Positions 29,906 to 61,881 of a DNA stretch of 64,000 bases are shown piece after piece. Every line of letters begins with the position of its first letter. Within the stretch, counting starts at the first letter, position 1. The notes beneath the pieces were generated by a model, which saw only the letters and a list, made by a program, of their open reading frames with translations, did no database searches and was not told the origin of the DNA. A program made the position numbers and the translations under genes. Source of the stretch: Oscillospiraceae bacterium (lineage in GTDB: Bacteria > Bacillota > Clostridia > Oscillospirales > Oscillospiraceae); NCBI GenBank assembly GCA_015068455.1, contig SVKO01000005.1, positions 62,001 to 126,000 on the forward strand, given 5' to 3'.

Positions 29906-32326
29906 TTATTTTACGATCAGATTGACCAGTTTATTCTTGACATGAATGACCTTGAACAGGGTCTTGCCTTCGGTGAAGCGGGCGACCTTTTCAACCTTCA
30001 TGGCCTCCGCCACAACGGTATCCTGATCGGAGTCCACGGGAACGCGGATGGTGCCGCGCAGCTTGCCGCAGACCTGGACGGCCATTTCCACAGTGGCGTC
30101 GATGGTCTTGGCCTCGTCCCATTCGGGCCAGGGCATCTGGCAGACCATCTTGCCGGACTCAGCGGCAAAGCCCATCTGCTCCCACATCTCCTCGGCGATA
30201 TGCGGAGTGAAGGGGCTGAGCAGATGCAGCAGGAGCTTGACGTCGCCGCGGCTGTAGCCGTTGGCATAGAACTGGTTGACCATGGTCATGAGCGCGGAGA
30301 TGGCGGTATTCATCTTCAGCTCGTCGATGTCCTGGGAGACCTTGCGTATGGTCTTGTGGACAATGGATTCATTTGCCTCGCTGATCTCGGGATCGTCCGA
30401 ACACAGCTCCTGCAGATTCCACACGCGGTCGAGGAAGCGCTTGGAGCCCTTCACAGCCTCGTTGGACCAGGAAACGGCCTTCTCAAAGTCGCCGATGAAC
30501 ATGATGTGCAGGCGCATGGTGTCCGCGCCGTACTGCTCCACGATCTCATTGGGATTGACCACGTTGCCGCGGCTCTTGGACATTTTCTCGCCGCCCTCGC
30601 CCAGGATCATGCCGTGGGAGGTGCGCTTCTGATAGGGCTCCTTGGTGGGCACAACGCCGATGTCATACAGGAACTTGTGCCAGAACCGGGAGTAGAGCAG
30701 ATGCAGGGTGGTGTGCTCCATGCCGCCGTTGTACCAGTCCACGGGAGACCAGTATTCCAGGGCTTCCCTGGAGGCCAGGGCCTTGTCGTTGTGGGGGTCC
30801 ATATAGCGCAGGAAGTACCAGCTGGAGCCGGCCCACTGGGGCATGGTGTCGGTTTCGCGCTTGGCGGGGCCGCCGCAGCAGGGGCAGGTGGTGTTGACCC
30901 AGTCGGTCATCTTGGACAGGGGGCTCTCGCCGTCGTCGGTGGGCTCGTAGGATTCCACCATCGGCAGCACCAGGGGAAGCTCCTCCTCGGGCAGCGGCAC
31001 CCAGCCGCACTTTTCGCAGTTGACCAGAGGGATGGGCTCGCCCCAGTAGCGCTGACGGGAGAAGACCCAGTCGCGCAGCTTGTAGTTGACCTGCTTGTGG
31101 CCCAGGCCGCGCTCCTCCAGCCATGCGGTCATGGCGGGGATGGCCTCCTTGACCGTCATGCCGTTCAGGAAGCCGGAATTGACCATGATGCCGGTGTCGT
31201 CCTTGAGGGTGAACGCGCCCTTTTCGATATCGCCGCCGGCGACGACCTCGATGATATCGCAGCCGAAGATCTTGGCGAATTCCCAGTCGCGGTCATCGTG
31301 GGCAGGAACGGCCATGATGGCGCCGGTGCCGTAGGTGATCAGAACATAGTCGGAGATAAAGATGGGGATCTCTTTGCCGTTGACGGGGTTGACGGCGCGC
31401 ACGCCCTTGATCTCCACGCCGGTCTTTTCCTTGTTGAGCTCGCTGCGCTCGAAGTCGGACTTACGGGCGGCGGCCTCCACATAGGCGGTGACGTCGTCCC
31501 AGTTTTCGATGCGGTCCTTCCATTGCTTCAGGAAGGGATGCTCCGGAGCAAGGACCATATAGGTGGCGCCGAACAGGGTGTCGCAGCGGGTGGTGTAGAC
31601 CACCAGGTCATCGCCGGCGGTGGTCTTGAAGGTGACCTCCGCGCCGACGCTGCGGCCGATCCAGTTGCGCTGCTGGATCTTGACGCGCTCGATGAAGTCC
31701 ACGTCGTCCAGGTCGTCGATCAGGCGCTGGGCATACTTGGTGATGGCCAGCATCCACTGGCTCTTCTCCTTGCGAATGACGGGGGCGCCGCAACGCTCGC
31801 ACACGCCGTCGACCACCTCTTCGTTGGCCAGCACGCACTTGCAGCTGGTGCACCAGTTGACGGGCATGGTGGTCTTGTAGGCCAGGCCGTGCTTGAACAT
31901 CTGAAGGAAGATCCACTGGGTCCACTTGTAATAGTTGGGGTCGGTGGTGTCCACGCAGCGGTCCCAGTCGAAGCTGTAGCCCAGCATTTTGAGCTGCTTG
32001 GTAAAGTTCTTGATGTTCTTTTCCGTCACCTGGGACGGATGGATATGATTCTTGATGGCATAGTTCTCCGTGGGCAGACCGAAGGCGTCAAACCCGATGG
32101 GAAACAGCACGTTGTAGTTCTGCATCCTGCGCTTGCGGGCAACGATATCGATGGCCGTAAAGGGGCGCGGATGACCCACGTGCAGGCCCTGTCCGGAGGG
32201 ATAGGGGAATTCGATCAGACCGTAGAACTTTTTCCGTGTCGTATCGCCGTTGACGGCGGCGAAAGGCTTGGTCTTGTCCCAATTGTCCTGCCATTTCTTT
32301 TCAATTGCGGTAAAATCGTACTTCAT
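29906..32326 (-). CDS. leuS: Leucyl-tRNA synthetase
   Basis: Charges tRNA-Leu. The 806-aa class Ia synthetase has [16 protein letters not shown] (HIGH signature), a CP1 editing domain in which DDRDWEFA follows VPAH, zinc-type cysteines in CEKCGWVP and CPCCGG, and EKMSKSRGN (KMSKS) in the C-terminal half. I start at ATG 32326 ([12 protein letters not shown]), behind AAGGAAAGTG; a TTG seven codons earlier has no site. Expression is under a leucine T-box. Confidence 0.97.
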
Positions 32327-32362
32327 ACACTTCACACTTTCCTTCAAAATTCAGCACATTTC

Positions 32363-32618
32363 AAAAAAGCCCCTGACCCGATCGGTCAGGGGCGAGGATT
32401 CGCGGTACCACCCTGATTCTGCGCAGAGTTCCCTCCGCACACTCAACGGCCCATAGGGCCCGGCCAGTAACGCGGCCGACGCCCTGCCCTACTTGGTTCG
32501 GACAGGGAGCTCCGGGATGAGCTATGCACAGCAGCCTCCACGCCGGCTCACACCCGCCGCCGGCTCTCTTTGCTGGAATGAAACTGTCTTATTCCCTTCA
32601 TTGCCTTTGTGATTTGCC
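32363..32618 (-). promoter_or_regulatory. T-box leader of leuS, leucine specifier
   Basis: Minus strand. Stem I carries AGAGAGCCGGCGG and GTGTGAGCCGGC, the specifier loop reads AG-CTC-A before TCCC, and the T-box AGGGTGGTACCGCG lies at 32414-32401. The terminator GCCCCTGACC / GGGTCAGGGGC plus six T is at 32393-32363. CTC is a leucine codon followed by the conserved purine. Uncharged tRNA-Leu would stabilise the antiterminator and raise leuS expression. Confidence 0.93.
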
Positions 32619-39943: not shown

Positions 39944-40105
39944 CAGGGAGTAGGATATGGCGCGTTAAGTACCGGACGGATAGGAGGTTGCCGCCGGGCG
40001 AAGGAGATTCTTTCTCCGCGGTGCCGTATCCGCCGACCGCCCTGACCGCCGGAAGCTGCCGGAAGAATATTTTTCAACCTCCTCCATCGAAATGGAGGCT
40101 TTTTT
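39944..40105 (+). promoter_or_regulatory. THF riboswitch with terminator/ribosome-site hairpin before folT
   Basis: Conserved THF aptamer pieces appear in order: GGGAGTAGGATATGG, GCGTTAAGT, GGAGGTTGCCGCCGG, GCGAA, CGCGGTGCCGTATCCGC. CAGGG (39944-39948) closes with CCCTG (40040-40044). After 36 nt, CCTCCAT (40081-40087) pairs with ATGGAGG (40092-40098) around CGAA, followed by C and six T that end at the folT ATG. The same GGAGG is the folT ribosome site, so this hairpin can block both transcription and translation when tetrahydrofolate is plentiful. Confidence 0.92.
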
Positions 40106-42059: not shown

Positions 42060-42322
42060 CGATAAATACGATGACGGAATTATGCTTCTGTCGGAGCGCC
42101 CCAGAGAGCCGGCGGGCGGTGCGAGCCGGTGCCAAAGACAGAGTGCAGTCTGCTTCCCGAGTAGACATGGCGAACGCCTGTGCAATTAGCTGTGTACGTC
42201 CGGCCCCGTTACCGGCCATGGACTTGCTTGAGTCCGAGAAAGTGCATCCGCTCTGCGGATGAAGCAGGGTGGTACCGCGAATCGAGATTCGTCCCTGAGG
42301 CTCCGGCCTCAGGGATTTTTTT
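42060..42322 (+). promoter_or_regulatory. T-box leader, specifier read as CTG (leucine)
   Basis: Stem I carries CAGAGAGCCGGCGG and GGTGCGAGCCGG, the T-box AGGGTGGTACCGCG is near 42266-42279, and the terminator TCCCTGAGGC / GCCTCAGGGA plus seven T is at 42292-42322. Lower stem I pairs GGAA with TTCC and TAC with GTA across a kink-turn (GATGAC / CGA). By analogy with the other three leaders here, the codon lies four bases before TTCC, giving CTG with C in the usual purine position. TGC (Cys) one base later is a less consistent reading. Confidence 0.85.
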
Positions 42323-42347: not shown

Positions 42348-43766
42348 ATGAACATGATTTCCATCAGCGACGTCACCATGAAGCAGTCCGGAAGGGCCGC
42401 CGGCGTCAATCTCAGCTTCCGGGAGAAGATCGAGCTTTCCAAGCAGCTTGACCGCCTGGGAGTGGATGTGATTGAAACGAGTCCCATCGTCAATCCGAAG
42501 GTGGACGCGCTGCTGATCAAATCCATTTCCACCGCCGTCAAGCACGCCGTTGTGGCCGTGCCCACCGGCCTTGCGGAAGAAGACGCCCAGCGCGCCTGGA
42601 ATGCGCTTTCCGAGGCCAAGCGCCCGAGATTGCAGGTCTGCGCGCCCGTGAGCGCAGTGCAGATGGAATATCTGGCCCACAAAAAGCCCGCCGCCATGCT
42701 GGAGGCCATCGGCGAGGCAGTGCGCAGAGCGAAGGATCTGTGCCCCGACGTGGAATTCTGGGCCGACGACGCCACCCGCGCCGATGCATCCTTCCTTTAC
42801 AGCGCCCTTTCCTGCGCCGTCGAAGCCGGTGCGGGAACCATCACCGTCTGCGATACCGCGGGCGCCATGCTGCCCGACGAATTCCTGGATTTCATCACCC
42901 GTCTGTATGAGAACGTCCCCGGACTGAAGGACGTTACCCTGGGCGTCGGGATCTCCAACGAGCTGTCCATGGCCGATTCCTGCGCCATCGCCGCCATCCG
43001 CGCCGGCGTGGGCGAGGTCAAAGCGGCCTCCTATCCCATCGACACCGCCAGTGTGGAAAACCTCGCCAAGATCCTCACAGCCAAGGGCGCGCAGCTGGAC
43101 GCCGGCACCCGGGTACACGTGACCCAGATGCACCGGATCCTGCGGCAGATCTCCTGGATGTTTGAGACCAGCCGCAGCAAGAACTCCCCCTTTGAAAACG
43201 GCGTGCAGGATCACAGCGGCCTCTATCTCACCGCCCATGACGACATGAGCGCCGTCATGAAGATGGTGACCCAGCTGGGCTACGATCTCAGCGAGGAAGA
43301 CGGCGTCAAGGTCTTTGAGGCCTTCCAGCGCATTGCCGAACGCAAGGAAAAGGTCGGCGCCCGGGAGCTGGACGCCATCGTGGCCTCCAGCGCCATGCAG
43401 GTCCCCCCCACCTACCGGATCGAGACTTATGTCATCAACGCCGGCAACGCCATTGCATCCACATCGCATATCAAGCTTCAGAAAAACGGCCAGACCATCG
43501 AAGGCTTGTGTGTCGGCGACGGCCCCATCGACGCCTCCATTCTCGCCATCGAGCAGGCAGTGGGCCATCACTATGAACTCGACGACTTCCAGATCCAGGC
43601 CGTCACCGAGGGGCGCGAGGCCATGGGCGAGACCGTGGTCAAGCTGCGCAGCGGCGGCAAGGTCTACTCCGGCCGCGGCATCTCCACCGATATCCTCGGC
43701 GCCAGTATCCGCGCCTACATCAACGCCCTGAACAAGATCGTATACGAAGAGGAAAACAATTCCTAA
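42348..43766 (+). CDS. 2-isopropylmalate synthase homologue with altered catalytic site
   Basis: The 472-aa protein aligns along LeuA: an N-terminal TIM barrel (1 to about 290) and a C-terminal LeuA_dimer regulatory domain (about 350-465, with VTEGREAMGETVVKLRSGG and GRGISTDILGASIRAY). In LeuA the barrel opens with DTTLRDGEQ; here it reads SDVTMKQSG, so catalytic Arg is Lys12 and the next Asp is Gln13. The metal motif VHTHDD is VGISNE, with Gly201 and Ser203 in place of both His, and the GxGERAGN motif is also lost. Claisen condensation is therefore unlikely. With a leucine T-box and an intact leucine-binding domain, a regulatory or repurposed role is possible. Confidence 0.88.
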   Translation: MNMISISDVTMKQSGRAAGVNLSFREKIELSKQLDRLGVDVIETSPIVNPKVDALLIKSISTAVKHAVVAVPTGLAEEDAQRAWNALSEAKRPRLQVCAPVSAVQMEYLAHKKPAAMLEAIGEAVRRAKDLCPDVEFWADDATRADASFLYSALSCAVEAGAGTITVCDTAGAMLPDEFLDFITRLYENVPGLKDVTLGVGISNELSMADSCAIAAIRAGVGEVKAASYPIDTASVENLAKILTAKGAQLDAGTRVHVTQMHRILRQISWMFETSRSKNSPFENGVQDHSGLYLTAHDDMSAVMKMVTQLGYDLSEEDGVKVFEAFQRIAERKEKVGARELDAIVASSAMQVPPTYRIETYVINAGNAIASTSHIKLQKNGQTIEGLCVGDGPIDASILAIEQAVGHHYELDDFQIQAVTEGREAMGETVVKLRSGGKVYSGRGISTDILGASIRAYINALNKIVYEEENNS

Positions 43767-43778
43767 GAGGAGCAGCAT

Positions 43779-46295
43779 ATGAATTTATCATTCTCCACCC
43801 GCGGCTGGCTCGACGTCAGCTGGGAAGAAAACATCCAGACCGCCCTGGACATGCGCTTCGGAGGCATTGAGGTCTACAATATCCATAAGACCCCCGCGCT
43901 GACCGATCGCGGCGGTCCCTTCCATAAATACAATACCGCAGCCACCGTCCGTCAGCTTCGGGAGAAAAAGCTCTCCATTCCTGTGTTTGACACCTCCTGC
44001 GATATCTCCAGCGAGGACTGCCTGGACGACGTTCGCGACATCATGCAGATCGCCCACAATATGCAGGTGCCTTATGTCTGTGTCGTGGCTTTGTGCGACG
44101 ACGATGAGCGCATCCGCGGCGCGCTCCGCGTTCTCATTCCCGACGCCGAACGCCTTGGCCTGACCATCCTGCTCAAGACCAGCGGCGTGTTCTCCGACAC
44201 CGCCCGCCTTCGCGCCCTCCTCGATGACTTCGCCTGCGATCAGCTGGCCGCCCTCTGGGATATCCACCACCCCTACCGCGATCACGGAGAGAGCGCCGAC
44301 ACCACCATCCGCAATCTGGGCGGCTATGTGCGCCACGTCCATCTGCGCGACTCCGACGACGCCTTCACCTACAATCTGATCGGCGAGGGCACCCTGCCCA
44401 CCAAGGATATGATGCTGGCCCTGTCCTCCATCGACTACGACGGCTTCATCTCCATCGAATGGAAGCCGGAATGGATGATGGACCTGCAGGACAAGGAGGT
44501 CATCTTCTCCCATTTCGTCAACTATATGAGCCGCTTCGACAACCCCCGGGGCAAGAAGCGCACCCTCTATGACAACTATAACCACACCGGTCAGTACGTC
44601 TGGAAGCACGACACCCTGATCTCCGAGACCTTCCCCCAGGTCCTTGACCGCATGGTGGAGGAATTCCCGGATCAGTACGCCTTCAAATACACCACCCTGG
44701 ACTACACCCGCACCTATGAGGAATTCCGGGAGGATGTGGATAATTTTGCCCGCGCCCTGATCTCCATGGGCGTGCGCCGGGGCAGCAAGGTGGCCATCTG
44801 GGCCACAAACGTGCCCGCCTGGTACATCACCTTCTGGGCATCGACCAAGATCGGCGCGGTGCTCGTCACGGTAAACACCGCCTACAAGATCCATGAGGCT
44901 GAGTACCTGCTGCGCCAGTCCGACACCCACACCCTGGTGATGATTGACTCCTGCCTGGACTCGAATTACGCCAAAATTATCAACGAGCTCTGCCCGGAAC
45001 TTGCCTCCACCAAGCCGGGCCAGCCCCTGCACGCCAAGCGCCTGCCCTTCCTGCGCAACGTCATCACCGTGGGCTTCAACATGCCCGGCTGCCTGAACTT
45101 CGACGAAGCCATGGATCGGGCGGATCTGGTCCCCATCGAGGAGGTCTGGCGCATGGCCGCCAATGTGCGGCCGGACGACGTGTGCAACATGCAGTACACT
45201 TCCGGCACCACGGGCTTCCCCAAGGGCGTCATGCTCACCAACTACAACGTGGTCAACGACGGCAAGTGCATCGGCGACCGCATGGGCCTGTCCACCGCCG
45301 ACCGTATGATGATCCAGGTGCCCATGTTCCACTGCTTCGGCATGGTGCTGGCCATGACGGCCTCCATGACCCACGGCGCCACCCTGTGTCCCCTGCCCTA
45401 TTTCTCGGCCAAGGTCTCCCTGGCCTGCATCAATCAGGAGCGCATCACCTGCTTCCACGGCGTGCCCACCATGTTCATCGCCATGTTCAACCACCCGGAT
45501 TACCGCAAGACGGATTTCTCCTATATGCGCACGGGCATCATGGCGGGCTCCGGCTGTCCGCCGGAACTCATGAAGCGCGCCGCCCAGCCGGACGAGATGA
45601 ACATGCGCGGCATCGTCAGCGTTTACGGTCAGACCGAGTCCTCGCCGGGCAGCACCATGTCCGCCTGGACCGACCCGCTGGAGCTTCGCTGCAACACCGT
45701 GGGCTACGACTTCCCCCATGTGGAGTGCAAAATCATCGATCCGGAGACCGGCGAAGAAGTGCCCGACGGAGTCAACGGCGAATTCTGCTCCAGTGGCTAC
45801 AACACAATGAAGGGCTACTACAAGATGCCCGAGGCCACCGCCGCCACCGTGGACGCCCAGGGCTGGCTCCACTCCGGCGACCTGGCATGCCGGGATTCTG
45901 ACGGCAATTACCGCATCACCGGCCGACTGAAGGACATGATCATCCGCGGCGGCGAGAACATCTACCCCAAGGAGATCGAGGAATTCATCTATACCCATCC
46001 GGCTGTACAGGACGTACAGGTCATCGGCGTTCCGGATAAAAAATACGGCGAAGAAATCATGGCCTGCATCGTGCTTAAAAAGGGTCAAAGCGTCACCGAG
46101 GGCGAGATGCTTGATTATATCCGCGCCTCCATGGCCCGGCACAAGGTACCCAGGTACATCGACTTCGTCGACGGCTTCCCCATGAACGCCGCGGGCAAGA
46201 TCCTCAAGTACAAAATGCGCGAGGACGCTACAAAGCGCCTGGGGCTGCAGGACGCCGCCGGGATCGATACGGCAAAAACATCGGAACAGCTTTGA
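43779..46295 (+). CDS. Fusion of TIM-barrel isomerase-like domain and acyl-CoA synthetase
   Basis: An 838-aa protein. Residues 1 to about 265 resemble the sugar-phosphate isomerase/AP-endonuclease-2 barrel, with metal-site-like ALWDIHHPYRDHGE, VRHVHLRD and FISIEWKPEW. Residues about 275-825 form an AMP-dependent acyl-CoA synthetase with YTSGTTGFPKGVML (about 472-485), YGQTESSPG, HSGDLA, GRLKDMIIRGGENIYPKEIE and the catalytic Lys in NAAGKILKYKMRE. GAGGAG precedes the ATG 12 nt after the LeuA-like gene. Context suggests a branched-chain acid, possibly isovalerate, as substrate; the barrel's role is unknown. Confidence 0.85.
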   Translation: MNLSFSTRGWLDVSWEENIQTALDMRFGGIEVYNIHKTPALTDRGGPFHKYNTAATVRQLREKKLSIPVFDTSCDISSEDCLDDVRDIMQIAHNMQVPYVCVVALCDDDERIRGALRVLIPDAERLGLTILLKTSGVFSDTARLRALLDDFACDQLAALWDIHHPYRDHGESADTTIRNLGGYVRHVHLRDSDDAFTYNLIGEGTLPTKDMMLALSSIDYDGFISIEWKPEWMMDLQDKEVIFSHFVNYMSRFDNPRGKKRTLYDNYNHTGQYVWKHDTLISETFPQVLDRMVEEFPDQYAFKYTTLDYTRTYEEFREDVDNFARALISMGVRRGSKVAIWATNVPAWYITFWASTKIGAVLVTVNTAYKIHEAEYLLRQSDTHTLVMIDSCLDSNYAKIINELCPELASTKPGQPLHAKRLPFLRNVITVGFNMPGCLNFDEAMDRADLVPIEEVWRMAANVRPDDVCNMQYTSGTTGFPKGVMLTNYNVVNDGKCIGDRMGLSTADRMMIQVPMFHCFGMVLAMTASMTHGATLCPLPYFSAKVSLACINQERITCFHGVPTMFIAMFNHPDYRKTDFSYMRTGIMAGSGCPPELMKRAAQPDEMNMRGIVSVYGQTESSPGSTMSAWTDPLELRCNTVGYDFPHVECKIIDPETGEEVPDGVNGEFCSSGYNTMKGYYKMPEATAATVDAQGWLHSGDLACRDSDGNYRITGRLKDMIIRGGENIYPKEIEEFIYTHPAVQDVQVIGVPDKKYGEEIMACIVLKKGQSVTEGEMLDYIRASMARHKVPRYIDFVDGFPMNAAGKILKYKMREDATKRLGLQDAAGIDTAKTSEQL

Positions 46296-46394: not shown

Positions 46395-46663
46395 CAACCA
46401 AATACGAAAAGCTATGACGAAGACGGTCGGGCGAATCGCTCTCAGAGAGCCGGTGGTTGGTGCAAACCGGCAGCATGGACCCATCAGACCTATCACTTCC
46501 GAGCTGAAGGCCCGAACACTTATGCAAGTAGACGCCTTCCGTAGCCCGCGTTAAGGGATAGGGCCTGTTGGGGCCTGAAGGGGCGGCCGAAGGCCGCAAT
46601 TTGAGTGGTACCGCGGGTATGTGTATAACAGCTCGTCTCAAGTTTGAGACGAGCTGTTTTTTT
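46395..46663 (+). promoter_or_regulatory. T-box leader, isoleucine specifier (ATC)
   Basis: Stem I has CAGAGAGCCGGTGG and TTGGTGCAAACCGG. Its base pairs AGCT-ATGAC-GAAG with CTTC-CGA-GCT, placing ATC followed by A in the specifier position. The T-box GAGTGGTACCGCGGGT ends near 46616, and the terminator ACAGCTCGTCTCA / TGAGACGAGCTGT plus seven T is at 46628-46663. The gene for the first HTH-cupin-acyl-CoA synthetase starts 34 nt later. Confidence 0.93.
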
Positions 46664-46696: not shown

Positions 46697-48964
46697 ATGA
46701 GTCCGAATGCTGTAAACAACCAACTGCTGGACATCGCCCAGCGCATCCGCGCCATGCGCGAAATCTCTGAATATTCCACCAAAGAAATGGCTGAGCGAAT
46801 TGAAATTCCTGAATCACTGTACCTGCAGTATGAGCGGGCGGAGATCGATCTGCCCTTCACCTTCATCCATAAATGCGCCCAGGTCTTCGACGTGGAACTG
46901 ACGGATCTGCTCGAGGGCAACTCCGCCCGCCTGTCCAGCTATACCGTCACCCGCCGCGACCGCGGTCTGGTCACCGCCAGTGAGGACGGCATCACCATCC
47001 AGGACATGGCGTCCAAATTCCGCCACAAGCTGGCCACCCCCTACTGGGTCACCTATGAGTATTCCGAGCAGCTCCAGCATGAGCCCATCCACACCACCAC
47101 CCATGCCGGCCAAGAGTTCGACCTGGTCATCAAGGGCAGCATGAAGGTGCGCGTGGGCGATCACGTGGAGGTCCTGCACGAGGGCGACAGCATTTTCTAC
47201 AACAGCTCCACCCCCCACGGCATGATCGCCGTCGACGGCGCCGACTGCGTGTTCCTGGCGATGATCATGGCCTCCGACGAGACCGACAAGGTCATCAAGC
47301 CCACCCCGCAGCGGGTGCGCCAGCCGGAGCCCAGCCTGCTGTGCGAGAAATTCGTCAAGCCCGTGGAGGATGAGAACGGCTGCCTGCAGTCCATCACCTT
47401 CCCAAACGCCGAAGAATTCAACTTTGCTTTCGACATTGTTGACGGCATTGCCCGCCGGGAGCCGGAGCGCCTGGCCATGATCTATGTGAGCAACGACATG
47501 GAGGAGCGGCGCTTCACCTTCAAGGATATGAAGGACGCCTCCTCCCAGGCCGCCAACTACTTCACCTCCCTTGGCATCAAGCGCGGCGACCGGGTCATGC
47601 TGGTGCTCAAGCGGCACTATCAGTTCTGGTTCTCCATCCTGGGTCTGCATAAGATCGGCGCCATCGCCATTCCCGCCACCAACCAGCTTCTGGAGCACGA
47701 CTTCACTTACCGCTTTGAATCCGCCGGCGTCAGCGCCATCGTCTGCACCGGCGACGGCGACACCGCCCATCAAGTGGAACTGGCCGAGCAGATCATGGGC
47801 ATCAATCTGACCAAGATCATCGTCGGACAGCCGCGCGAAGGCTGGCACGACTTCAATGAAGAGTACGGCCTGTTCTCCCGCCGGTTCCGCCGCCGCGACA
47901 ATTCTCCCTGCGGCAGCGATCCGATGCTGATGTTCTTCTCCTCCGGCACCACCGGCTATCCCAAGATCGTCCAGCACAACTACAAGTACGCCCTGGGCCA
48001 TTTCGTCACCGCCAAGTACTGGCATCAGGTGCGCCGTGAGGGCCTGCATTTCACCATTTCCGAGACCGGCTGGGGCAAGGCCCTGTGGGGCAAGCTCTAC
48101 GGCCAGTGGCTGTGCGAGGGCGCGGTATTCGTCTATGACTTTGACCGCTTCCACGCCGACAAGATCCTGCCCATGTTCGCCAAGTACCACATCACCACCT
48201 TCTGCGCGCCGCCCACCATGTACCGCATGCTCATCAAGCAGGATCTGAGCCAGTACGACCTGAGCTCCATCGAGCATGCCACCACCGCAGGCGAAGCGCT
48301 GAACGCCGAGGTCTTCTATCAGTTCCAGAAGTCCACCGGCCTGGCCGTCGCCGAGGGCTTCGGGCAGACCGAAACCACACTCTCCATCGGCAACCTCCGC
48401 GGCACCGCCATCAAGCCGGGCTCCATGGGCAAGCCCATCCCCTGCTACGGGGTGGATCTGGCCGATCCCGACGGCAATCCCGTGCCCGACGGCGTCAACG
48501 GCGAGATCGTCATCCATACGGACAAATCCATCACCAACGGCTTGTTCCAGTGCTACTACCGCGACGAGGAGAAGACGAAGGAAGCCTGGCATGACGGCCT
48601 GTATCACACCGGCGATCTTGCCTGGCGCGACGAGGACGGCTACTTCTGGTATGTGGGCCGGGCCGACGACGTGATCAAATCCTCCGGCTACCGCATCGGG
48701 CCCTTCGAGATCGAGTCCACCATCATGGAGCTTCCGTATGTCCTCGAGTGCGGCGTTTCTGCCGCCCCGGACGAGATCCGCGGCCAGGTGGTCAAGGCAA
48801 GCATCGTGCTTGTGCCCGGCAAGGAAGGCACCGAGGAACTCAAAAAAGAGATCCAGACCTACGTCAAGAAGCACACCGCCCCCTATAAATATCCCCGCAT
48901 CGTGGTGTTCCGCGACGAATTGCCCAAAACCATCAGCGGCAAAATTATGCGAAATAAGCTATAA
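46697..48964 (+). CDS. HTH-cupin-acyl-CoA synthetase fusion, isoleucine-controlled paralogue
   Basis: A 755-aa three-domain protein. Residues 11-74 are an XRE helix-turn-helix, and residues about 115-190 a cupin (HTTTHAGQEFDLVIKGSMKV, HEGDSIFY, TPHGM). Residues about 240-755 are a medium-chain-type acyl-CoA synthetase with FFSSGTTGYPK (413-423), EGFGQTET, HTGDLAWRDEDGYFWYVGR and catalytic Lys749 in TISGKIMRNKL. The ATG at 46697 follows AAAGGAAAG. Starvation for isoleucine should induce it, so 2-methylbutyrate is the candidate substrate. HTH plus cupin suggests that the enzyme also senses a ligand or binds DNA. Substrate and DNA binding are inference. Confidence 0.9.
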   Translation: MSPNAVNNQLLDIAQRIRAMREISEYSTKEMAERIEIPESLYLQYERAEIDLPFTFIHKCAQVFDVELTDLLEGNSARLSSYTVTRRDRGLVTASEDGITIQDMASKFRHKLATPYWVTYEYSEQLQHEPIHTTTHAGQEFDLVIKGSMKVRVGDHVEVLHEGDSIFYNSSTPHGMIAVDGADCVFLAMIMASDETDKVIKPTPQRVRQPEPSLLCEKFVKPVEDENGCLQSITFPNAEEFNFAFDIVDGIARREPERLAMIYVSNDMEERRFTFKDMKDASSQAANYFTSLGIKRGDRVMLVLKRHYQFWFSILGLHKIGAIAIPATNQLLEHDFTYRFESAGVSAIVCTGDGDTAHQVELAEQIMGINLTKIIVGQPREGWHDFNEEYGLFSRRFRRRDNSPCGSDPMLMFFSSGTTGYPKIVQHNYKYALGHFVTAKYWHQVRREGLHFTISETGWGKALWGKLYGQWLCEGAVFVYDFDRFHADKILPMFAKYHITTFCAPPTMYRMLIKQDLSQYDLSSIEHATTAGEALNAEVFYQFQKSTGLAVAEGFGQTETTLSIGNLRGTAIKPGSMGKPIPCYGVDLADPDGNPVPDGVNGEIVIHTDKSITNGLFQCYYRDEEKTKEAWHDGLYHTGDLAWRDEDGYFWYVGRADDVIKSSGYRIGPFEIESTIMELPYVLECGVSAAPDEIRGQVVKASIVLVPGKEGTEELKKEIQTYVKKHTAPYKYPRIVVFRDELPKTISGKIMRNKL

Positions 48965-49007: not shown

Positions 49008-49286
49008 AATAAAGGCTAAGACGGAGAGGGTTCCCCTCAGTTCCATTTCAGAGAGCCGGCGTTTGGTGCGAGCCGGTATTGGGCGTTCGGAATTTGTCGC
49101 TCCCAAGCCGGAGAGAAGAAAGCGTAAGCAAGTAGAACTCCCCCGCGTCAGCTGCGTCAGTGCTTAGGGCTTGCTGGAGCCCGATGAGTGGTACATATCG
49201 AGAGGTATGTGCAATTTGAGTGGTACCGCGGGTATGCAATGCTGCAGCTCGTCTCAAGGATCTATCTTTGGGACGGGCTGTTTTTT
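49008..49286 (+). promoter_or_regulatory. T-box leader, valine specifier (GTC)
   Basis: Stem I has CAGAGAGCCGGCG and TTGGTGCGAGCCGG. Its base pairs GGCT-AAGAC-GGAG with CTCC-CAA-GCC, placing GTC followed by G in the specifier position. The 3' part AATTTGAGTGGTACCGCGGG is identical to that of the isoleucine leader, and the terminator stem (CAGCTCGTCTCAA / TTGGGACGGGCTG plus six T, 49245-49286) is also related. The two leaders therefore share origin and differ in specifier. Confidence 0.92.
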
Positions 49287-49316: not shown

Positions 49317-51611
49317 ATGACCAACAAGACACTGACCGGACTGGACGTCAAGATCCAGGAAATGGCCGGCCGAATCCGCGATCTTCGCGAGATCACCGGC
49401 TTTACCACCGCCGAGATGGCGGAGCGCACAGGCATCAGCGAGGAAGAATATGTTCGCTGCGAGGCCGGCGTCAGCGATCTGCATTTTGCGTTCCTGTATC
49501 GCTGCGCTTTGGCCTTCGGCGTCGACGTCACCGATCTGATCGAGGGCCACAGCCCGAAGCTGCGCTCCTATACCGTCACCCGCAGCGGCCTCGGCCAGAA
49601 GATCGAGCAGGCCCATGAGATGGTCTACTACAACCTGGCCGCCGACTTCCAGAACCGCATCGCCGATCCCCTGCTGGTGGTCAATAAATATTCCGACCGC
49701 GCCTTCCACAGCGATATCGAGCTCACCACCCACTACGGCCAGGAGTGCGATCTGATCGTCAAGGGCTCCATGAAGGTCCAGGTGGGCGAGCATACGGAGC
49801 TGCTGCATGAAGGCGACTGCATCTACTACGACAGCTCCATCCCCCACGGCATGGTGGCCGCCGGCGGCGAGGACTGCATCTTCTATGCCATCGTCCTGCG
49901 TCCCCAGGACGCTCTGCCCGGCGCGTCCCCCGTGGGCGAGACCTATCTGCCCAGAGCAGAGGCAGATTCCGACGAGGAAGAGCGCGTCTACAAGAATTTC
50001 ATCGTCCCCACCGAGGATGAAAACGGCCTGTGCACGGCCATCGCGTTCAAGAACGAAGAGAAGTTCAACTTTGCCTTCGACGTCATTGACGCCCTGGGCC
50101 GCCGCAGCCCGGACAAGCTGGCCATGATCCACGTGTCCAACGACAAGACCGAGCGCCGCTTCACCTTCAAGGATATGAAGGACGCTTCCTCCCAGGCTGC
50201 CAACTACTTTACATCTCTTGGCATCAAACGCGGCGACCGGGTCATGCTGATCCTCAAGCGCCACTACCAGTACTGGTTCGCCCTTCTGGGTCTGCACAAG
50301 CTCGGCGCCATCGCCATCCCCGCCACCTATCAGCTCAAGCAGCATGACCTGAGCTATCGCTTCCAGTCCGCCGGCGTCAGCGCGATCCTGTGCACCTCCG
50401 ACGGCGACGTTGCCCACGAAGTGGAGATGGCCGAGGCAGAGACCGGCCTGAATTTGACAAAGATCATCGTCGGACAGGCCCGCGAAGGCTGGCGTGACTT
50501 CAATGAGGAATTCGGCCTGTTCTCCCGCCGGTTCCGCCGCCGCGACAACTCCCCCTGCGGCTCCGAGCCCATGCTCATGTACTTCACCTCCGGCACCTCG
50601 GGTTATCCCAAGATCGCCGTGCACAATTACAAGTATCCCCTGGGCCACTTCATCACCGCGAAATATTGGCAGCGCGTGACCCCCGACGGCCTGCATCTGA
50701 CCATTTCTGACACCGGCTGGGCCAAATCCGCCTGGGGCAAGATCTACGGCCAGTGGCTGTGCGAGACGGCTCTGTTCGTCTATGACTTCGACCGCTTCCA
50801 TGCCGACGACATCATGCCGATGTTCGCCAAGTACCAGATCACCACGTTCTGTGCGCCGCCCACCATGTACCGCATGTTCATCAAGCAGGATCTGAGCAAA
50901 TACGACTTCAGCTCCGTGCGCAATGCGGCCATCGCCGGCGAAGCCATGAACCCCGAGGTCTACCGCCAGTTTGAAAAGGCCACCGGCCTGCGCATCATGG
51001 AGGGCTTCGGCCAGACCGAGTCCACCGTCATCATCGCCAACCTGGCCGGCGACACCCACAAGGTCGGCTCCATGGGCAAAGCCGTGCCCCTGTACGACGT
51101 GCATCTGCTCACCCCCGAGGGCAAGGACGTCGCCCCCGGCGGCACCGGCGAGATCTGCATGAGCATCAAGGACGGCATCCCCTGCGGCCTGGCGGTGGAA
51201 TACTACCGCAGCCCGGAAATGACCGCCCAAACCTGGCGCGACGGTTTCTATCACACCGGCGATCTCGCCTGGCGGGATGAGGACGGCTTCTTCTGGTACG
51301 TGGGCCGGGCCGACGACGTGATCAAGTCCTCCGGCTACCGTATCGGGCCCTTCGAGATCGAGTCCACCATCATGGAGCTGCCCTACGTGCTCGAATGCGG
51401 CGTCTCCCCTGCCCCGGACGAGGTCCGCGGCCAGGTGGTCAAGGCCAGCATCGTGCTGGTGCCGGGCACCGAAGGCACCGAAGCCCTCAAGAAAGAGATC
51501 CAGACCTACGTCAAGACCCACACCGCGCCCTACAAATACCCGCGCATCGTGGAGTTCAAGGAATCCCTGCCCAAGACCACCAGCGGAAAGATCATCCGCA
51601 GCCAGCTGTGA
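49317..51611 (+). CDS. HTH-cupin-acyl-CoA synthetase fusion, valine-controlled paralogue
   Basis: 764 aa with the same architecture as the preceding gene: XRE domain (about 16-80), cupin (about 120-200, with TTHYGQECDLIVKGSMKV and HEGDCIYY), and acyl-CoA synthetase (about 245-764, YFTSGTSGYPK, EGFGQTEST, HTGDLAWRDEDGFFWYVGR, catalytic Lys in TTSGKIIRSQL). The synthetase halves are nearly superimposable; the stretch TFKDMKDASSQAANYFTSLG is identical. AGGATTGAAG lies before the ATG. A valine T-box and downstream oxidoreductase and aminotransferase suggest isobutyrate as substrate. It leads an operon to ilvE. Confidence 0.9.
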   Translation: MTNKTLTGLDVKIQEMAGRIRDLREITGFTTAEMAERTGISEEEYVRCEAGVSDLHFAFLYRCALAFGVDVTDLIEGHSPKLRSYTVTRSGLGQKIEQAHEMVYYNLAADFQNRIADPLLVVNKYSDRAFHSDIELTTHYGQECDLIVKGSMKVQVGEHTELLHEGDCIYYDSSIPHGMVAAGGEDCIFYAIVLRPQDALPGASPVGETYLPRAEADSDEEERVYKNFIVPTEDENGLCTAIAFKNEEKFNFAFDVIDALGRRSPDKLAMIHVSNDKTERRFTFKDMKDASSQAANYFTSLGIKRGDRVMLILKRHYQYWFALLGLHKLGAIAIPATYQLKQHDLSYRFQSAGVSAILCTSDGDVAHEVEMAEAETGLNLTKIIVGQAREGWRDFNEEFGLFSRRFRRRDNSPCGSEPMLMYFTSGTSGYPKIAVHNYKYPLGHFITAKYWQRVTPDGLHLTISDTGWAKSAWGKIYGQWLCETALFVYDFDRFHADDIMPMFAKYQITTFCAPPTMYRMFIKQDLSKYDFSSVRNAAIAGEAMNPEVYRQFEKATGLRIMEGFGQTESTVIIANLAGDTHKVGSMGKAVPLYDVHLLTPEGKDVAPGGTGEICMSIKDGIPCGLAVEYYRSPEMTAQTWRDGFYHTGDLAWRDEDGFFWYVGRADDVIKSSGYRIGPFEIESTIMELPYVLECGVSPAPDEVRGQVVKASIVLVPGTEGTEALKKEIQTYVKTHTAPYKYPRIVEFKESLPKTTSGKIIRSQL

Positions 51612-51620
51612 GGCGGCATT

Positions 51621-52322
51621 ATGGAATTTAAGCGGCTCACCCTCTTCGCCGGCCATTACGGCAGCGGCAAGACGAATATTGCCCTCAATTATGCCCGGGC
51701 GCTGAACCGGGACCACAACAACGTGGTCATCGCGGATCTGGATATCGTCAATCCCTACTTCCGCACCAAGGATTCCGAGGCGGCGCTCAAAGCCGAGGGC
51801 ATCGGGCTCATCGTATCGGAGTTTGCCAACTCCAACCTGGACGTGCCCGCCATGCCGAAGGAGATCTACGCCCTGGTGGACGACCGGTCGCAGCTGGGTG
51901 TGCTGGACATCGGCGGCGACGACCGGGGCGCCCTCGCCCTGGGCAGATACACCCCCGCCATCGCGGAGGAAAACAACTATGAGATGCTCCTGGTGGTGAA
52001 TATGTACCGGCCCCTCACCCGCACCGCCGACGATACCATCGAGGTCCTGCGGGAGATCGAGGAGGCCTGCCGTCTTCCCTTCACCGCCATCGTGAACAAT
52101 TCCAACCTGGGTCCGCTGACCACTGCGCAGACGGTGCTCAGCAGCATCCCATATGCACAGGAGATCTCCCGCAAAACGGGTCTGCCGGTCAAAATGACCT
52201 GCGCAAAAGAAGATTTATGTCCCAGCCTGGCCGGGCAGGTGGAAAATCTCTTCCCCCTGTCCCTCCAGAAACTATATTACCAAATCGATTCGGAGGTGCC
52301 CTATGGCGAAACTGACGTTTAA
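51621..52322 (+). CDS. P-loop ATPase of the oxidoreductase operon
   Basis: A 233-aa protein with Walker A GHYGSGKTN (residues 11-19), switch-like ADLDIVNPYFRTKD and VLDIGGDDRGALALGRY, placing it among ParA/MinD/CobQ-type deviant P-loop ATPases. It starts 10 nt after the synthetase gene and overlaps the ferredoxin gene by 20 nt, so it is part of the operon. Function is unknown; assistance in iron-sulfur loading or activation of the oxidoreductase is a guess from position. Confidence 0.8.
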   Translation: MEFKRLTLFAGHYGSGKTNIALNYARALNRDHNNVVIADLDIVNPYFRTKDSEAALKAEGIGLIVSEFANSNLDVPAMPKEIYALVDDRSQLGVLDIGGDDRGALALGRYTPAIAEENNYEMLLVVNMYRPLTRTADDTIEVLREIEEACRLPFTAIVNNSNLGPLTTAQTVLSSIPYAQEISRKTGLPVKMTCAKEDLCPSLAGQVENLFPLSLQKLYYQIDSEVPYGETDV

Positions 52323-52509
52323 GGAAGAGCTGTGCAAGGGCTGCGGCCTGTGCGTTGACGCCTGTCCGCGCAATCTGTTGGCCCTGTCAAAGACCCGGCT
52401 CAATCAAAAGGGGCATGCGCCCGTGGAGCTCACTGACCCCGCCGCATGCATCGGCTGCGCCTTCTGCGCGACCATGTGCCCGGACTGTGTCATCACGGTC
52501 GAGCGCTGA
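52303..52509 (+). CDS. 2-oxoacid:ferredoxin oxidoreductase, ferredoxin-like delta subunit
   Basis: A 68-aa dicluster [4Fe-4S] protein with CKGCGLCVDACP (11-22) and CIGCAFCATMCP (49-60), both intact. It carries electrons between the catalytic core and ferredoxin. GGAGG 6 nt before the ATG. The order delta-alpha-beta-gamma is that of Kor/Vor-type enzymes. Confidence 0.92.
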   Translation: MAKLTFKEELCKGCGLCVDACPRNLLALSKTRLNQKGHAPVELTDPAACIGCAFCATMCPDCVITVER

Positions 52510-52524: not shown

Positions 52525-53591
52525 ATGCAGGAAAAAGTACTCATGAAGGGCAATGAAGCCATTGCCGAGGCCGCGATCCTGGCGGGCTGCCGCCACTATT
52601 TCGGCTACCCCATCACCCCGCAGACCGAGGTCGCGGCCTATATGTCCAAGAAGATGCCCAAGATCGGCGGCACCTTCCTGCAGGCCGAGAGCGAGATCGC
52701 GGCCATCAACATGGTCTACGGCGTTTCCGCCACGGGCAAGCGCGTGATGACCTCCTCCTCCAGCCCCGGAATCGCCCTGAAATGCGAGGGCATCTCCTAC
52801 CTGGCGGGTTCCGACCTGCCGGCGCTGATCCTGAACGTCCAGCGCGGCGGCCCCGGCCTGGGCGGCATCCAGCCGTCGCAGTCGGACTACTTCCTTGCCA
52901 CCCGCGGCCCCGGCCACGGCGACTTCCATGTCATCGTTCTGGCCCCCGCCAGCGTGCAGGAAATGGCGGACCTCACCCTGAAGGCCTTTGAGCTGGGCGA
53001 GAAGTACCGCATGCCCGTCATGCTCCTGGCCGACGGCACCATGGGCCAGATGATGGAGCCCGTGGCCCTGCCCGAGCCCACCGAGATCGATCCCACGCCG
53101 AAGAGCTGGGCCGCCACCGGCACCAACTGCGAGCGTGAGCATAACATTGTCAACTCCCTTTACCTGTCCCCGGACGAGCTGGAGCGCACCAACATCGAGC
53201 GCTTCGAGCGCTACGCCGCCATCGAGCGCGACGAGCCCATGTGGGAGGAGTTCATGATGGACGACGCCGAGATCTGCGTGGTTTCCACCGGCATCACCGC
53301 GAGAGTCTCCCGCAACGCCATCGTTGAGGCGCGCAAGCAGGGCATCAAGGTCGGCATGCTCCGGCCCATCACCCTGTGGCCCTTCCCGAAGAAGGCCCTG
53401 CAGGCCGCCGCGGAAAAGGTCAAGGCTTTCGTATCCGTGGAGCTGAACATGGGCCAGATGAAGGAAGACGTCGAGCTGGCCATCCGCTGCACCAAGCCCG
53501 TCAGCCTGTGCTACCGCGTCGGCGGCATGATCCAGACCCCGGACGAGGTGCTGGAAGCCATCAAGAAAGCAAACGAAGGAGGTCAGGAATA

Positions 53592-53592
<1 letters not shown>
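52525..53592 (+). CDS. 2-oxoacid:ferredoxin oxidoreductase, alpha subunit
   Basis: The 355-aa alpha chain has the CoA/TPP-interface sequence [19 protein letters not shown] near the N-terminus, then [31 protein letters not shown] and a C-terminal [16 protein letters not shown]. Sequence alone does not separate 2-oxoglutarate (Kor) from 2-ketoisovalerate (Vor) enzymes. The valine-controlled operon and adjacent ilvE favour branched 2-oxoacids. AAAGGAG precedes the ATG. Confidence 0.9.
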
Positions 53593-54335
<743 letters not shown>

Positions 54336-54338
54336 GAA

Positions 54339-54872
54339 ATGGCTGAAAATCAAATCGTCATCGCCGGCTTCGGCGGACAGGGCCTGCTGTTCTCCGGCAA
54401 GGTGCTGGCCTATGCCGGCCTCATCGAAGGCAGAGAGCTGAGCTGGCTGCCCTCCTACGGCCCGGAAATGCGCGGCGGCACCGCCAACTGCAACGTCATC
54501 CTGTCGGATATCCCCGTGGGCTCGCCCATCGTGCAGAAGCCCGACATCCTCATGGTGATGAACAACCCGTCCCTGGACAAATATGAGAACGCCGTGGTTC
54601 CCGGCGGCAAGATCTTCATCGACTCTTCACTGATCGGCCGGAAGGTGCAGCGCACCGACGTGGAGGCCTATTATGTCCCCGCCACCCAGATGGCCGCCGA
54701 CATGGGCTTCCCCACTCTGGCGAACATGATCCTGCTGGGCACCGTCATCGCCAAGACCGGCTGCATCAACCCTGAGAGCCTCTCAGACGCCCTGCACAAG
54801 GTCATCCCCGCCCGCAAGGCAAATCTCTTTGACGCCAACATGCAGGCCCTGCAGGCCGGCATGGCGTTCTGA
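54339..54872 (+). CDS. 2-oxoacid:ferredoxin oxidoreductase, gamma subunit
   Basis: The 177-aa gamma chain shows IAGFGGQGLLFSGKVLAYAG at the N-terminus, LPSYGPEMRGGTANCNVILS and FPTLANMILLGTVI, all typical. It completes the four-subunit enzyme. It follows beta by 3 nt and precedes the aminotransferase gene by 52 nt, without terminator, so the operon continues. Confidence 0.92.
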   Translation: MAENQIVIAGFGGQGLLFSGKVLAYAGLIEGRELSWLPSYGPEMRGGTANCNVILSDIPVGSPIVQKPDILMVMNNPSLDKYENAVVPGGKIFIDSSLIGRKVQRTDVEAYYVPATQMAADMGFPTLANMILLGTVIAKTGCINPESLSDALHKVIPARKANLFDANMQALQAGMAF

Positions 54873-54924: not shown

Positions 54925-55995
54925 ATGGCAATGAATATTTCTATTACCCGTACCACCAATCCGAAGCCGCGGCCCGCGGACGAGAGCAAGCTGGGCTTTG
55001 CCAAGCAGTTCTCCGACCATATGTTCCTGATGGACTACACCGCCGGCGTCGGCTGGCATGACGCCCGCATCGTTCCCTATGCGCCCTTTGAGATGGATCC
55101 GGCCACCGTGGTCCTGCACTATGCCCAGGAGATCTTCGAAGGCCTGAAGGCCTACCGCACCGCCGAGGACAAGATTCTCCTGTTCCGTCCGGACTGCAAT
55201 GCCAACCGCATGAACGACTCCGCCGACCGTCTGTGCATCCCCCGCATCGATCCCGACTTCTTCGTCGAGGCCGTGCGCACCCTGGTGGATGTGGATAAGG
55301 ACTGGGTCCCCCATCTGGACGGCACATCCCTGTACATCCGCCCCTTCATCTTTGCCAACGACGTGGGCCTGGGCGTCCACGCCTCCAAGCACTATGTCTT
55401 CTGCATCATCACCGCCCCCTCCGGCGCCTACTACGCCGAGGGCATCAACCCGGTGCGCATCTACGTCGAGGATGACTACATCCGCGCGGCCCCGGGCCTG
55501 ACCGGCTTCACCAAGTGCGGCGGCAACTACGCCGCCTCCATCAAGGCCGGCGAGCTGGCCGAGGAGCAGGGCTTCGCCCAGGTGCTCTGGCTGGACGGCA
55601 TTGAGAAGAAGTATGTCGAAGAGGTCGGCTCCATGAACATCATGTTCAAGATCGACGGCAAGATCTACACCGCCGCCACCGTCGGCACCGTCCTGCCCGG
55701 CGTCACCCGCCGCTCCATCATCGAGCTGTGCAAGGACTGGGGCTACGAGGTCATCGAGGGCAAGCTGGCCATCGCCGACATCATGGCAGCCGCCCGCGAG
55801 GGCAAGCTCGAGGAAGTCTTCGGCACCGGCACCGCCGCCGTCGTCTCCCCCGTCAAGGAGCTGCGCTGGAAGGACGAGACCGCCTACATCTCCGGCGGCA
55901 AGATCGGCCCCCTCACCCAGAAGCTCTACGACACCCTCACCGGCATCCAGTGGGGCAAGCTCCCCGACACCAAGGGCTGGACCGTGGAGGTCTGA
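54925..55995 (+). CDS. ilvE: Branched-chain amino acid aminotransferase
   Basis: PLP fold type IV transaminase (356 aa) interconverting Leu, Ile, Val and their 2-oxoacids with glutamate. DYTAGVGWHDARIVPYAPFE, LHYAQEIFEGLKAYR, LYIRPFIF, GGNYAASIKAGELAEEQGFAQVLWLDG (in parts) with the PLP Lys following GGNYAASI, and the ELRWKDETAYISGG tail fit the longer bacterial BCAT class. GGAGG 9 nt before ATG 54925. As last gene of the valine operon it supplies the final step from 2-oxoacid to amino acid. Confidence 0.95.
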   Translation: MAMNISITRTTNPKPRPADESKLGFAKQFSDHMFLMDYTAGVGWHDARIVPYAPFEMDPATVVLHYAQEIFEGLKAYRTAEDKILLFRPDCNANRMNDSADRLCIPRIDPDFFVEAVRTLVDVDKDWVPHLDGTSLYIRPFIFANDVGLGVHASKHYVFCIITAPSGAYYAEGINPVRIYVEDDYIRAAPGLTGFTKCGGNYAASIKAGELAEEQGFAQVLWLDGIEKKYVEEVGSMNIMFKIDGKIYTAATVGTVLPGVTRRSIIELCKDWGYEVIEGKLAIADIMAAAREGKLEEVFGTGTAAVVSPVKELRWKDETAYISGGKIGPLTQKLYDTLTGIQWGKLPDTKGWTVEV

Positions 55996-60277: not shown

Positions 60278-60345
60278 ATTCTTTTGGGCAACATTCTCCG
60301 TTTTCGCGCCTGTTTATGAAATCACTTTTTTAAGGAGGTTTGAAA

Positions 60346-61881
60346 ATGGATGAAAACAATCTGATGCAAAACATCACATCATTCACACTCTATGCCCAAA
60401 AAGCAAGGCTGACACTGACCGGTGACGGCGAGCTTCTGTCCGCCGGAATGGCGGGTGTGGCAGCGGTACAGTTTGAATTCTCATCGGATTGGGACGGCCT
60501 GCAGAAAACCGCCGTATTCACCAACGGGATCCGCACGGTCAAGGTCGATGAAACCCACTGGGCAGACGGCGTATGTGTGATTCCGGCGGAGGTGCTGGCC
60601 GTGCCCGGGAAAACCGTTATGGCCGGCGTTTACGGCTCCAACGGGCTGCATCTGACGTTGCCGACGGTCTGGTGTGTCCTGGGTCGGGTGGAGCCCTCCC
60701 CGGATCTGTCGGGCGAACCGGTGAATCCAGGCCCGGCGCTCAGCGCATTGGAGCGGCGGATTCAGGCGCTGGAACTGGCCGCCGTTACGGAAGAAACTGT
60801 CAGTGAATGGGGCTTTACCAAAAACGCCCTCACGCAGCATCAGAGTCTGGACGCTCTGGTGCCAAGGGCACAGCAGGCAGCCAAAACCAATTCCATGACT
60901 CAGGCAGTGGGCGTAGACGGCACGGGCAAGCTCTGGACGCTTCCCGCCGGACAGGTCCGGACCCTGGCGGCAGCGGAGTCATCCGGGATATATACCTACT
61001 GCGGCGCGGATTTCGATTTCACAACCGTGGATGAAATTATGCAGATGGCGTCGGAAGGGGCGCCGATCCGGCTTGCGCTCATCAATACAGGCGACGTCTA
61101 TGCCCTGAGCCACATGCACGGCGCACAATCCACCGCGCGGATGTTCTTCACCGGCATCACCTGGGGCACCGGCATGACAATGCCCGCCGTGGATGTATTT
61201 GAGCTTGACAATCAATTGGGGATTTCCCGGATTTCCAGCGTGGACCTGTCCCTGCTCGGCAACTACACCAAGCCCGCCGGCGGCATTCCCGCGACGGACC
61301 TGGCAGCCGCTCTTCAAAAGAATCTGCCGTTTTACGTGCATATCAATTGGGGAACCAGTTCATTTATCTGCACCGAGACATATGCCGATATTTACGAAGC
61401 CTTTATTGATGACAACCGACCGATCATTGCCATTATGGATGGAGAATATTCCGGTTTTTTAAGTCATGCAGATCAGAATGAAGCGGTCATTTGTGTCGCG
61501 GACGTGGCGTCCGGAAGCCGAGCTTTGTACGAATTCCATCTGTCGTCTTCTGATGTTCTCAACGTAAATGTCAGAAACATCGGCGACGCGGATGTTCCCG
61601 CCCGGGAAACTGTCAGCGGCTCCACCGTCTCGATTGCGGCTGAGGACAACCACGTCTACTCCTGCGGCGAGATCACCAGTCTGACGATCACAGATTCCGC
61701 GCAGAACATTTCCTTCAAGGTGGACTTCACGTCCGGCTCCACGGCCACGGTCATTAACACGCCCTCCGGCTACAAGGCCCCCGGCGGCGATCTGACCGCC
61801 GAAGCAAACAAGGAGTACGAACTGGATGTGCGCAACGGCAAGGCCGTGCTGACGGCGTTTGAGGCGGTGAGCGCATCATGA
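60346..61881 (+). CDS. Phage baseplate/tail-fibre-like protein
   Basis: A 511-aa protein of modular appearance. Residues 1-115 form a beta-rich N-terminal domain (SDWDGLQKTAVFTNG, PGKTVMAGVYGSNGLHLTLPT) as in upper-baseplate or tail-attached proteins. A short helix at about 125-150 (LSALERRIQALE) resembles trimerisation coils. The remaining residues are low-similarity beta domains. AAGGAGG lies 7 nt before the ATG. It overlaps the next gene by 4 nt. No head, capsid, lysis or integration genes are near. Confidence 0.65.
   Translation: MDENNLMQNITSFTLYAQKARLTLTGDGELLSAGMAGVAAVQFEFSSDWDGLQKTAVFTNGIRTVKVDETHWADGVCVIPAEVLAVPGKTVMAGVYGSNGLHLTLPTVWCVLGRVEPSPDLSGEPVNPGPALSALERRIQALELAAVTEETVSEWGFTKNALTQHQSLDALVPRAQQAAKTNSMTQAVGVDGTGKLWTLPAGQVRTLAAAESSGIYTYCGADFDFTTVDEIMQMASEGAPIRLALINTGDVYALSHMHGAQSTARMFFTGITWGTGMTMPAVDVFELDNQLGISRISSVDLSLLGNYTKPAGGIPATDLAAALQKNLPFYVHINWGTSSFICTETYADIYEAFIDDNRPIIAIMDGEYSGFLSHADQNEAVICVADVASGSRALYEFHLSSSDVLNVNVRNIGDADVPARETVSGSTVSIAAEDNHVYSCGEITSLTITDSAQNISFKVDFTSGSTATVINTPSGYKAPGGDLTAEANKEYELDVRNGKAVLTAFEAVSAS

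Follow-up and report, generated by a model that had tools for sequence, protein, structure and literature searches.

The use of dead enzymes as regulatory subunits is already known. In the HisG-HisZ ATP-phosphoribosyltransferase, HisZ is a dead relative of histidyl-tRNA synthetase that serves as the regulatory subunit for an enzyme of amino-acid biosynthesis. The AdoMetDC prozyme of Trypanosoma is likewise described as a catalytically dead protein that regulates its partner enzyme (PMC6221367). LeuA itself (TIGR00973; M. tuberculosis LeuA, 1SR9/3FIG) comprises an HMGL-like barrel, a linker and a LeuA_dimer leucine domain, and is normally inhibited by leucine through the latter (PMC10464499, PMC1919377). 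Searches of the open-licence literature yielded nothing direct on LeuA-like regulatory subunits, nor any such subunit derived from LeuA and linked to an acyl-CoA ligase; earlier work in subscription journals may exist.

The utilization of branched-chain acids provides a further basis for comparison. Rumen bacteria and ruminococci carboxylate isovalerate, isobutyrate and 2-methylbutyrate to leucine, valine and isoleucine, according to the classical labelling studies (Allison 1962, 1966) cited in PMC7356843. No report naming genes for the reductive carboxylation of branched-chain acids was found in the open-licence literature. Among the ligases that act on such acids, MbcS of S. aureus prefers 2-methylbutyrate and isobutyrate, and is poor with isovalerate (PMC10026030).

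The present analysis concerns a window of 64,000 nucleotides (the whole stretch of DNA that was analyzed) from an Oscillospiraceae genome, in which a sequence-only reading had drawn attention to a degenerate LeuA homologue, designated here LeuA*. Its ORF (42348..43766, forward strand) is present as described, follows a good ribosome-binding site and encodes a protein of 472 residues. The domain order is that of LeuA, with Pfam matches to HMGL-like (PF00682, residues 4-226, 9e-33) and LeuA_dimer (PF08502, residues 338-464, 1e-30). In contrast to LeuA, which has metal ligands, a GERAG loop and an HQHG linker segment, LeuA* lacks all three, and its scores are far below the NCBIfam LeuA cut-offs (319 versus 532 bits and 282 versus 598.7 bits), which places it outside the curated LeuA family.

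Individual residues were compared in alignments of LeuA* with true LeuA proteins of the same order. The reported replacement of the DTTLRDGEQ motif is real, but its register was off by one: the corresponding residues are DVTMKQSGR rather than SDVTMKQSG, such that Asp8 aligns with the first Asp. Within this motif Asp8 and Thr10 are retained, the metal-binding Asp is replaced by Gln13, and Lys12 occupies the place of the catalytic Arg, whose loss had been correctly recognized. The substitution of VHTHDD by VGISNE also stands, at residues 200-205, with the HxH metal histidines (HCH) replaced by Gly201-Ile-Ser203. Tyr229 takes the position of the loop Asn of NGxGERAGN. The divalent metal site (Asp of LRDG, HxH and Asn of NGxGERAGN) is consequently missing from the window protein, and the position of the catalytic Glu (SAED), which is not conserved, is occupied by Asp140. 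The GERAG part of the loop is deleted, as had been claimed, in nearly all of the 92 family members described below; deletion of the linker segment containing NAFAHExGIHQHG had been overlooked. The C-terminal leucine domain, on the other hand, was rightly called well preserved, and retains the GDG..D and GxGxSTDI motifs.

The structural comparison with LeuA that had been suggested was based on an AlphaFold (AF2) model with a mean pLDDT of 86.9 and a pTM of 0.60, the latter value leaving the relative placement of the domains unsure. The best solved folds were methylthioalkylmalate (MAM) synthase and M. tuberculosis LeuA, including its leucine-bound form, and the barrel can be superimposed on the LeuA domain of L. 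monocytogenes (3EWB; TMt 0.94, rmsd 1.5).

The losses in LeuA* are common to 92 intact relatives, which are 40-78% identical to the window protein. They are therefore not the result of chance or local decay, and a decayed or misread gene was ruled out. The metal Asp is retained in none of the 92 aligned members, the two HxH histidines in one and two members, respectively, and the metal-loop Asn in four; 86 members are devoid of all four of these ligands. The catalytic Glu is retained in 22 members and the catalytic Arg in 32, with Lys in its place in 50. GDG and GxGxS(T)D of the leucine domain are almost invariant across the family. A replacement set of metal ligands was also considered and rejected: no conserved group of His, Asp or Glu residues takes over from HxH, and two of the four metal/loop ligands coexist in just one of the 92 members. 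In the phylogenetic tree, LeuA* and true LeuA form two separate groups with support of 100/100.

The loss of the catalytic motifs might also suggest a functionless remnant, retained by its position in the operon. Such an explanation is scarcely credible, given that the ORF is intact in 92 divergent relatives and that 25 positions are invariant and many more nearly so, which implies purifying selection. Another alternative, which the sequence-only reading had left side by side with that of a regulatory subunit, is an enzyme whose chemistry has changed and no longer depends on a metal, with isovaleryl-CoA or a similar acyl-CoA as its substrate. In keeping with this, the model shows a well-formed barrel, in which residues Asp8, Asp141, Arg144, Asp169 and Lys225 are invariant or nearly so. 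Nevertheless, we regard changed chemistry as unlikely, since the metal ligands, the GERAG loop and the HQHG linker are all lost, no family-specific constellation of new ligands is seen, and the pathway proposed below has no missing step for such an enzyme to fill. Of the two possibilities, the losses, the gene pairing and the leucine-type leader described below favor the regulatory subunit. Asp8, Asp141, Arg144 and Asp169, being invariant or nearly so in the alignment, could still mean a remaining ligand or reaction, which counts against a purely regulatory LeuA*.

LeuA* was found in 16 of 60 relatives, and a scan of a genome collection yielded 80 loci, mostly from rumen and gut Clostridia, with some from Eggerthellaceae and one from an Erysipelotrichaceae isolate. 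One of the Eggerthellaceae loci (L102) carries, within 10 kb of its LeuA*-TIM-Lig pair, a second, distant LeuA-like match, possibly a true LeuA.

The acyl-CoA synthetase fusion reported beside LeuA* was confirmed as the next gene, which encodes TIM-Lig (43779..46295, forward strand). In this protein, a sugar-isomerase-like TIM barrel (residues 1-265; Pfam AP_endonuc_2) precedes an acyl-CoA synthetase (residues 276-838; AMP-binding and AMP-binding_C), a putative isovaleryl-CoA synthetase. Its acyl-CoA ligase motifs are intact and invariant, and it resembles the PRK12583 fatty acid ligases more than MbcS. The model of the TIM domain (pLDDT 93.7) has the UlaE epimerase as its best fold. From this match to UlaE-type epimerases, together with the sugar-isomerase family pattern, E133, D161, H188 and E227 are predicted to be the metal ligands of the domain.

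In all 49 well-covered loci, i.e., those in which 8 kb are present on both sides of LeuA*, TIM-Lig adjoins LeuA* as the next gene. The two genes overlap by 4 nt in 46 of the 91 measurable pairs and by 1 nt in nine, as would be expected of translationally coupled genes; the pair in the window is separated by 12 nt. There are exceptions to the pairing. A single LeuA* (L044:15476-16903), which branches off first within its group when the tree is drawn from the midpoint, lacks an adjacent TIM-Lig despite a continuing contig, and ends a ParA-VOR-IlvE operon (VOR being the oxidoreductase described below). In this genome (G009) TIM-Lig lies on another contig, so that the partner of LeuA* there could be VOR. 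Conversely, a sister clade of TIM-Lig occurs without LeuA*, directly behind a T-box, in eight of the 60 relatives (L137-L144). The specifier is CUC (Leu) in seven of these eight T-boxes, namely those with a recognizable Stem I. The ligase would thus belong to leucine with or without LeuA*, which looks like an added regulator, accessory rather than essential. Each of the eight LeuA*-free TIM-Lig proteins has the full set of four predicted metal ligands in its TIM domain, as compared with 21 of 76 that are paired with LeuA*; the window protein carries K133.

These exceptions bear on whether LeuA* senses leucine for the pathway as a whole, through VOR or a multi-enzyme complex, instead of for TIM-Lig alone. 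The operon in G009, the eight relatives with TIM-Lig only, and several loci in which LeuA* directly follows IlvE would all accord with such a role. Against it, TIM-Lig is adjacent in every well-covered locus, often with the 4-nt overlap; the VOR, HCL and IlvE genes are all missing within 10 kb in about one-third of those 49 loci; and VOR, being common to three amino acids, would be a poor target for leucine alone. We therefore consider a whole-pathway regulator improbable, and retain TIM-Lig as the preferred partner of LeuA*.

Downstream of TIM-Lig, two further ligases, HCL2 (46697..48964) and HCL3 (49317..51611), are encoded on the forward strand, each composed of an HTH-cupin part and an acyl-CoA synthetase. 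They are a putative 2-methylbutyryl-CoA synthetase and a putative isobutyryl-CoA synthetase, respectively. Their nearest named family is MbcS, of which they are relatives rather than members, since both score below the curated cut-off of 850 bits (440 bits for HCL2, 405 for HCL3) and add the HTH-cupin part. Moreover, MbcS feeds fatty acid synthesis, whereas HCL2 and HCL3 are placed here in a proposed route to branched-chain amino acids. The HTH-cupin part might also enable these ligases to bind DNA or, by way of the cupin, to sense a ligand. HTH-cupin-ligases occur in 30 of the 49 well-covered LeuA* loci.

The remaining genes of the cluster, all on the forward strand, encode an oxidoreductase and an aminotransferase. 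A P-loop (ParA/CbiA-like) ATP-binding protein (51621..52322), with a weak CbiA match and no named family, is found in 30 of the 49 well-covered loci; adjoining the VOR genes, it is possibly an accessory factor of the oxidoreductase. It is followed by a 68-residue ferredoxin-like protein with two CxxCxxCxxxC motifs (52303..52509), the probable delta subunit, and by the alpha (52525..53592), beta (53592..54335) and gamma (54339..54872) subunits of a 2-oxoacid:acceptor oxidoreductase. The alpha subunit passes the curated NCBIfam VorB cut-off (532 versus 399 bits), while the beta (TPP) subunit has PorB_KorB-type matches and the gamma subunit PRK08537/PorC_KorC matches, in both cases below cut-off. 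With four subunits and a curated alpha, the complex corresponds to a 3-methyl-2-oxobutanoate:ferredoxin oxidoreductase (VOR). The last gene (54925..55995) encodes IlvE, the branched-chain amino acid aminotransferase (PRK13357, 475 bits against a cut-off of 307; ilvE_II, 397 bits against 250).

T-boxes switch genes on under amino acid scarcity, and each of the three ligases in the window stands behind a T-box of its own on the forward strand. The leucine-type leader that had been recognized above LeuA* was borne out (42062..42299; Rfam RF00230, 97.5 bits), with the specifier CUG (Leu) read from the aligned Stem I. HCL2 is preceded by a leader with the specifier AUC (Ile; 46405..46643, 93.2 bits) and HCL3 by one with GUC (Val; 49009..49259, 74.6 bits). 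The Leu and Ile leaders pass the RF00230 gathering threshold of 93; the Val leader is below it, yet its antiterminator and Stem I are kept. As a control, the T-box on the reverse strand (32385-32610) before the leucyl-tRNA synthetase gene of the same window (leuS, 29906-32347) reads CUC (Leu), as it should.

Since reading the specifier codons by regular expression proved noisy, a covariance model of Stem I was used instead, by which 117 leaders were found in 91 sources. The specifier is Leu in 60 of 61 leaders before LeuA*, Ile in all 31 before HCL2, and Val in 18 of 21 before HCL3 (the exceptions being two Ile and one Leu). Some 24 of the 117 matches are training sequences chosen partly by codon, in addition to the leuS leader; without the training leaders the independent counts are about 47 of 48 for Leu, 26 of 26 for Ile and 12 of 15 for Val. 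According to a published survey, specifier codons agreed with gene function wherever the function was known (PMC2494555).

Taken together, three ligases under Leu, Ile and Val T-boxes, a VOR and an IlvE point to the synthesis of branched-chain amino acids from branched-chain acids, a pathway that the sequence-only reading had missed. The substrate preference of MbcS for 2-methylbutyrate and isobutyrate fits MbcS-like ligases under the Ile and Val T-boxes and a different ligase under Leu. The predicted chemistry is the same as that of isovalerate carboxylation in the rumen, which was defined by labelling; no paper in the open-licence literature was found to name the present genes, their T-boxes or a LeuA* regulator.

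The opposite direction of flux was also considered. Some 2-oxoacid:ferredoxin oxidoreductases operate oxidatively, IlvE can do so as well, and MbcS-like ligases handle the same acids, such that the locus might degrade branched-chain amino acids, with LeuA* sensing leucine and turning degradation on. This would conflict with the T-boxes, whose activation under scarcity is the opposite of a degradative need, with ligases that spend ATP in making acyl-CoA, and with the standard biosynthetic genes tested, which are missing from the genome. Degradation is accordingly a quite remote alternative, and a biosynthetic direction is preferred.

The gene content of the genome (2.3 Mb, 99.7% complete) was examined in this respect, and no true LeuA, LeuD, IlvC or IlvD was found in it. 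It had been stated that leuB, leuC and leuD are not adjacent to LeuA*; for leuD, the one of the three covered by the search, this absence extends to the whole genome. The search for a second, intact leuA, which had also been advised, gave none. The possibility that such a gene does the work was thus rejected: besides LeuA*, the genome encodes two HMGL proteins, one homocitrate-synthase-like and devoid of LeuA_dimer, the other of the oxaloacetate decarboxylase/pyruvate carboxylase B type. The former, a second DRE-TIM protein whose motifs are intact, is encoded on contig C7 of G000 (L002:1111-2532, reverse strand) and presumably resembles the clostridial Re-citrate synthase.

Among the 60 relatives, leuD (counted at E < 1e-40, to exclude aconitases) is present in one of the 16 genomes with LeuA* and in 30 of the 44 without it. 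In 297 genomes of the order, the corresponding numbers are three of 50 versus about 184 of 245 (Fisher 9e-21, relatedness ignored). LeuA* thus tends to accompany the absence of the standard leucine pathway.

Several other features were observed in the window. A THF riboswitch (39944-40044) lies ahead of the gene for a probable folate transporter (40106) and of folC, and a ZMP/ZTP riboswitch (353-446, reverse strand) is found near the window start. A protein of 513 residues (60340-61881) without an NCBIfam match at 1e-10 is encoded beside another ORF of unknown role. A PADLOC search was negative.

The locus would make leucine, isoleucine and valine out of branched-chain fatty acids in three steps. 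The acids would be converted to acyl-CoA by three dedicated ligases, one per amino acid, each turned on by its own uncharged tRNA via the Leu, Ile or Val T-box. The acyl-CoA would then undergo ferredoxin-driven reductive carboxylation to the 2-oxo acid by the four-subunit VOR, and IlvE would complete the synthesis of the amino acid. TIM-Lig is probably the isovaleryl-CoA synthetase. In this scheme LeuA* would be a LeuA-derived pseudoenzyme, unable to make isopropylmalate, whose C-terminal domain would bind leucine and pass the signal to TIM-Lig, presumably within a complex and in the sense of feedback inhibition. The ligase, as the first ATP-consuming step, would be a natural feedback point, and the leucine branch would be controlled twice: at transcription, by the tRNA-Leu T-box, and at the enzyme, by leucine.

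The family-wide catalytic loss, the conserved leucine domain, the adjacency to the ligase and the Leu T-box all favor a regulatory role. We consider it probable that LeuA* has lost catalysis and serves TIM-Lig as a leucine-binding regulatory subunit or close partner in the synthesis of branched-chain amino acids from branched-chain acids. The likeness to HisZ lies in a dead enzyme relative acting as a regulatory subunit: LeuA* combines a dead catalytic site with an intact effector domain and is genetically coupled to the ligase, with the exceptions noted above. It differs from HisZ in fold, amino acid and partner. Whereas the AdoMetDC prozyme and its partner are paralogues, LeuA* is unrelated in sequence to TIM-Lig.

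A broader proposal is put forward more tentatively. The LeuA-derived pseudoenzyme family may constitute the leucine-feedback subunit of the ligase, having taken over as the epimerase-like barrel of the latter decayed, and the cluster may represent the missing genes for isovalerate, 2-methylbutyrate and isobutyrate carboxylation in rumen and gut anaerobes, each amino acid having its own ligase under T-box control.

Since the early 1960s, branched-chain fatty acids have been recognized as growth factors of fiber-degrading rumen bacteria, and their passage into leucine, valine and isoleucine has been followed. The window locus proposes a full gene set for this route from branched-chain acids to branched-chain amino acids, in which the tRNA leaders assign each ligase to one amino acid. 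With these genes and leaders proposed, the pathway could be tested directly and predicted from genome sequences, with regard to cross-feeding and isoacid feed supplements, and LeuA* would add a clear case of the reuse of an allosteric domain through a dead enzyme.
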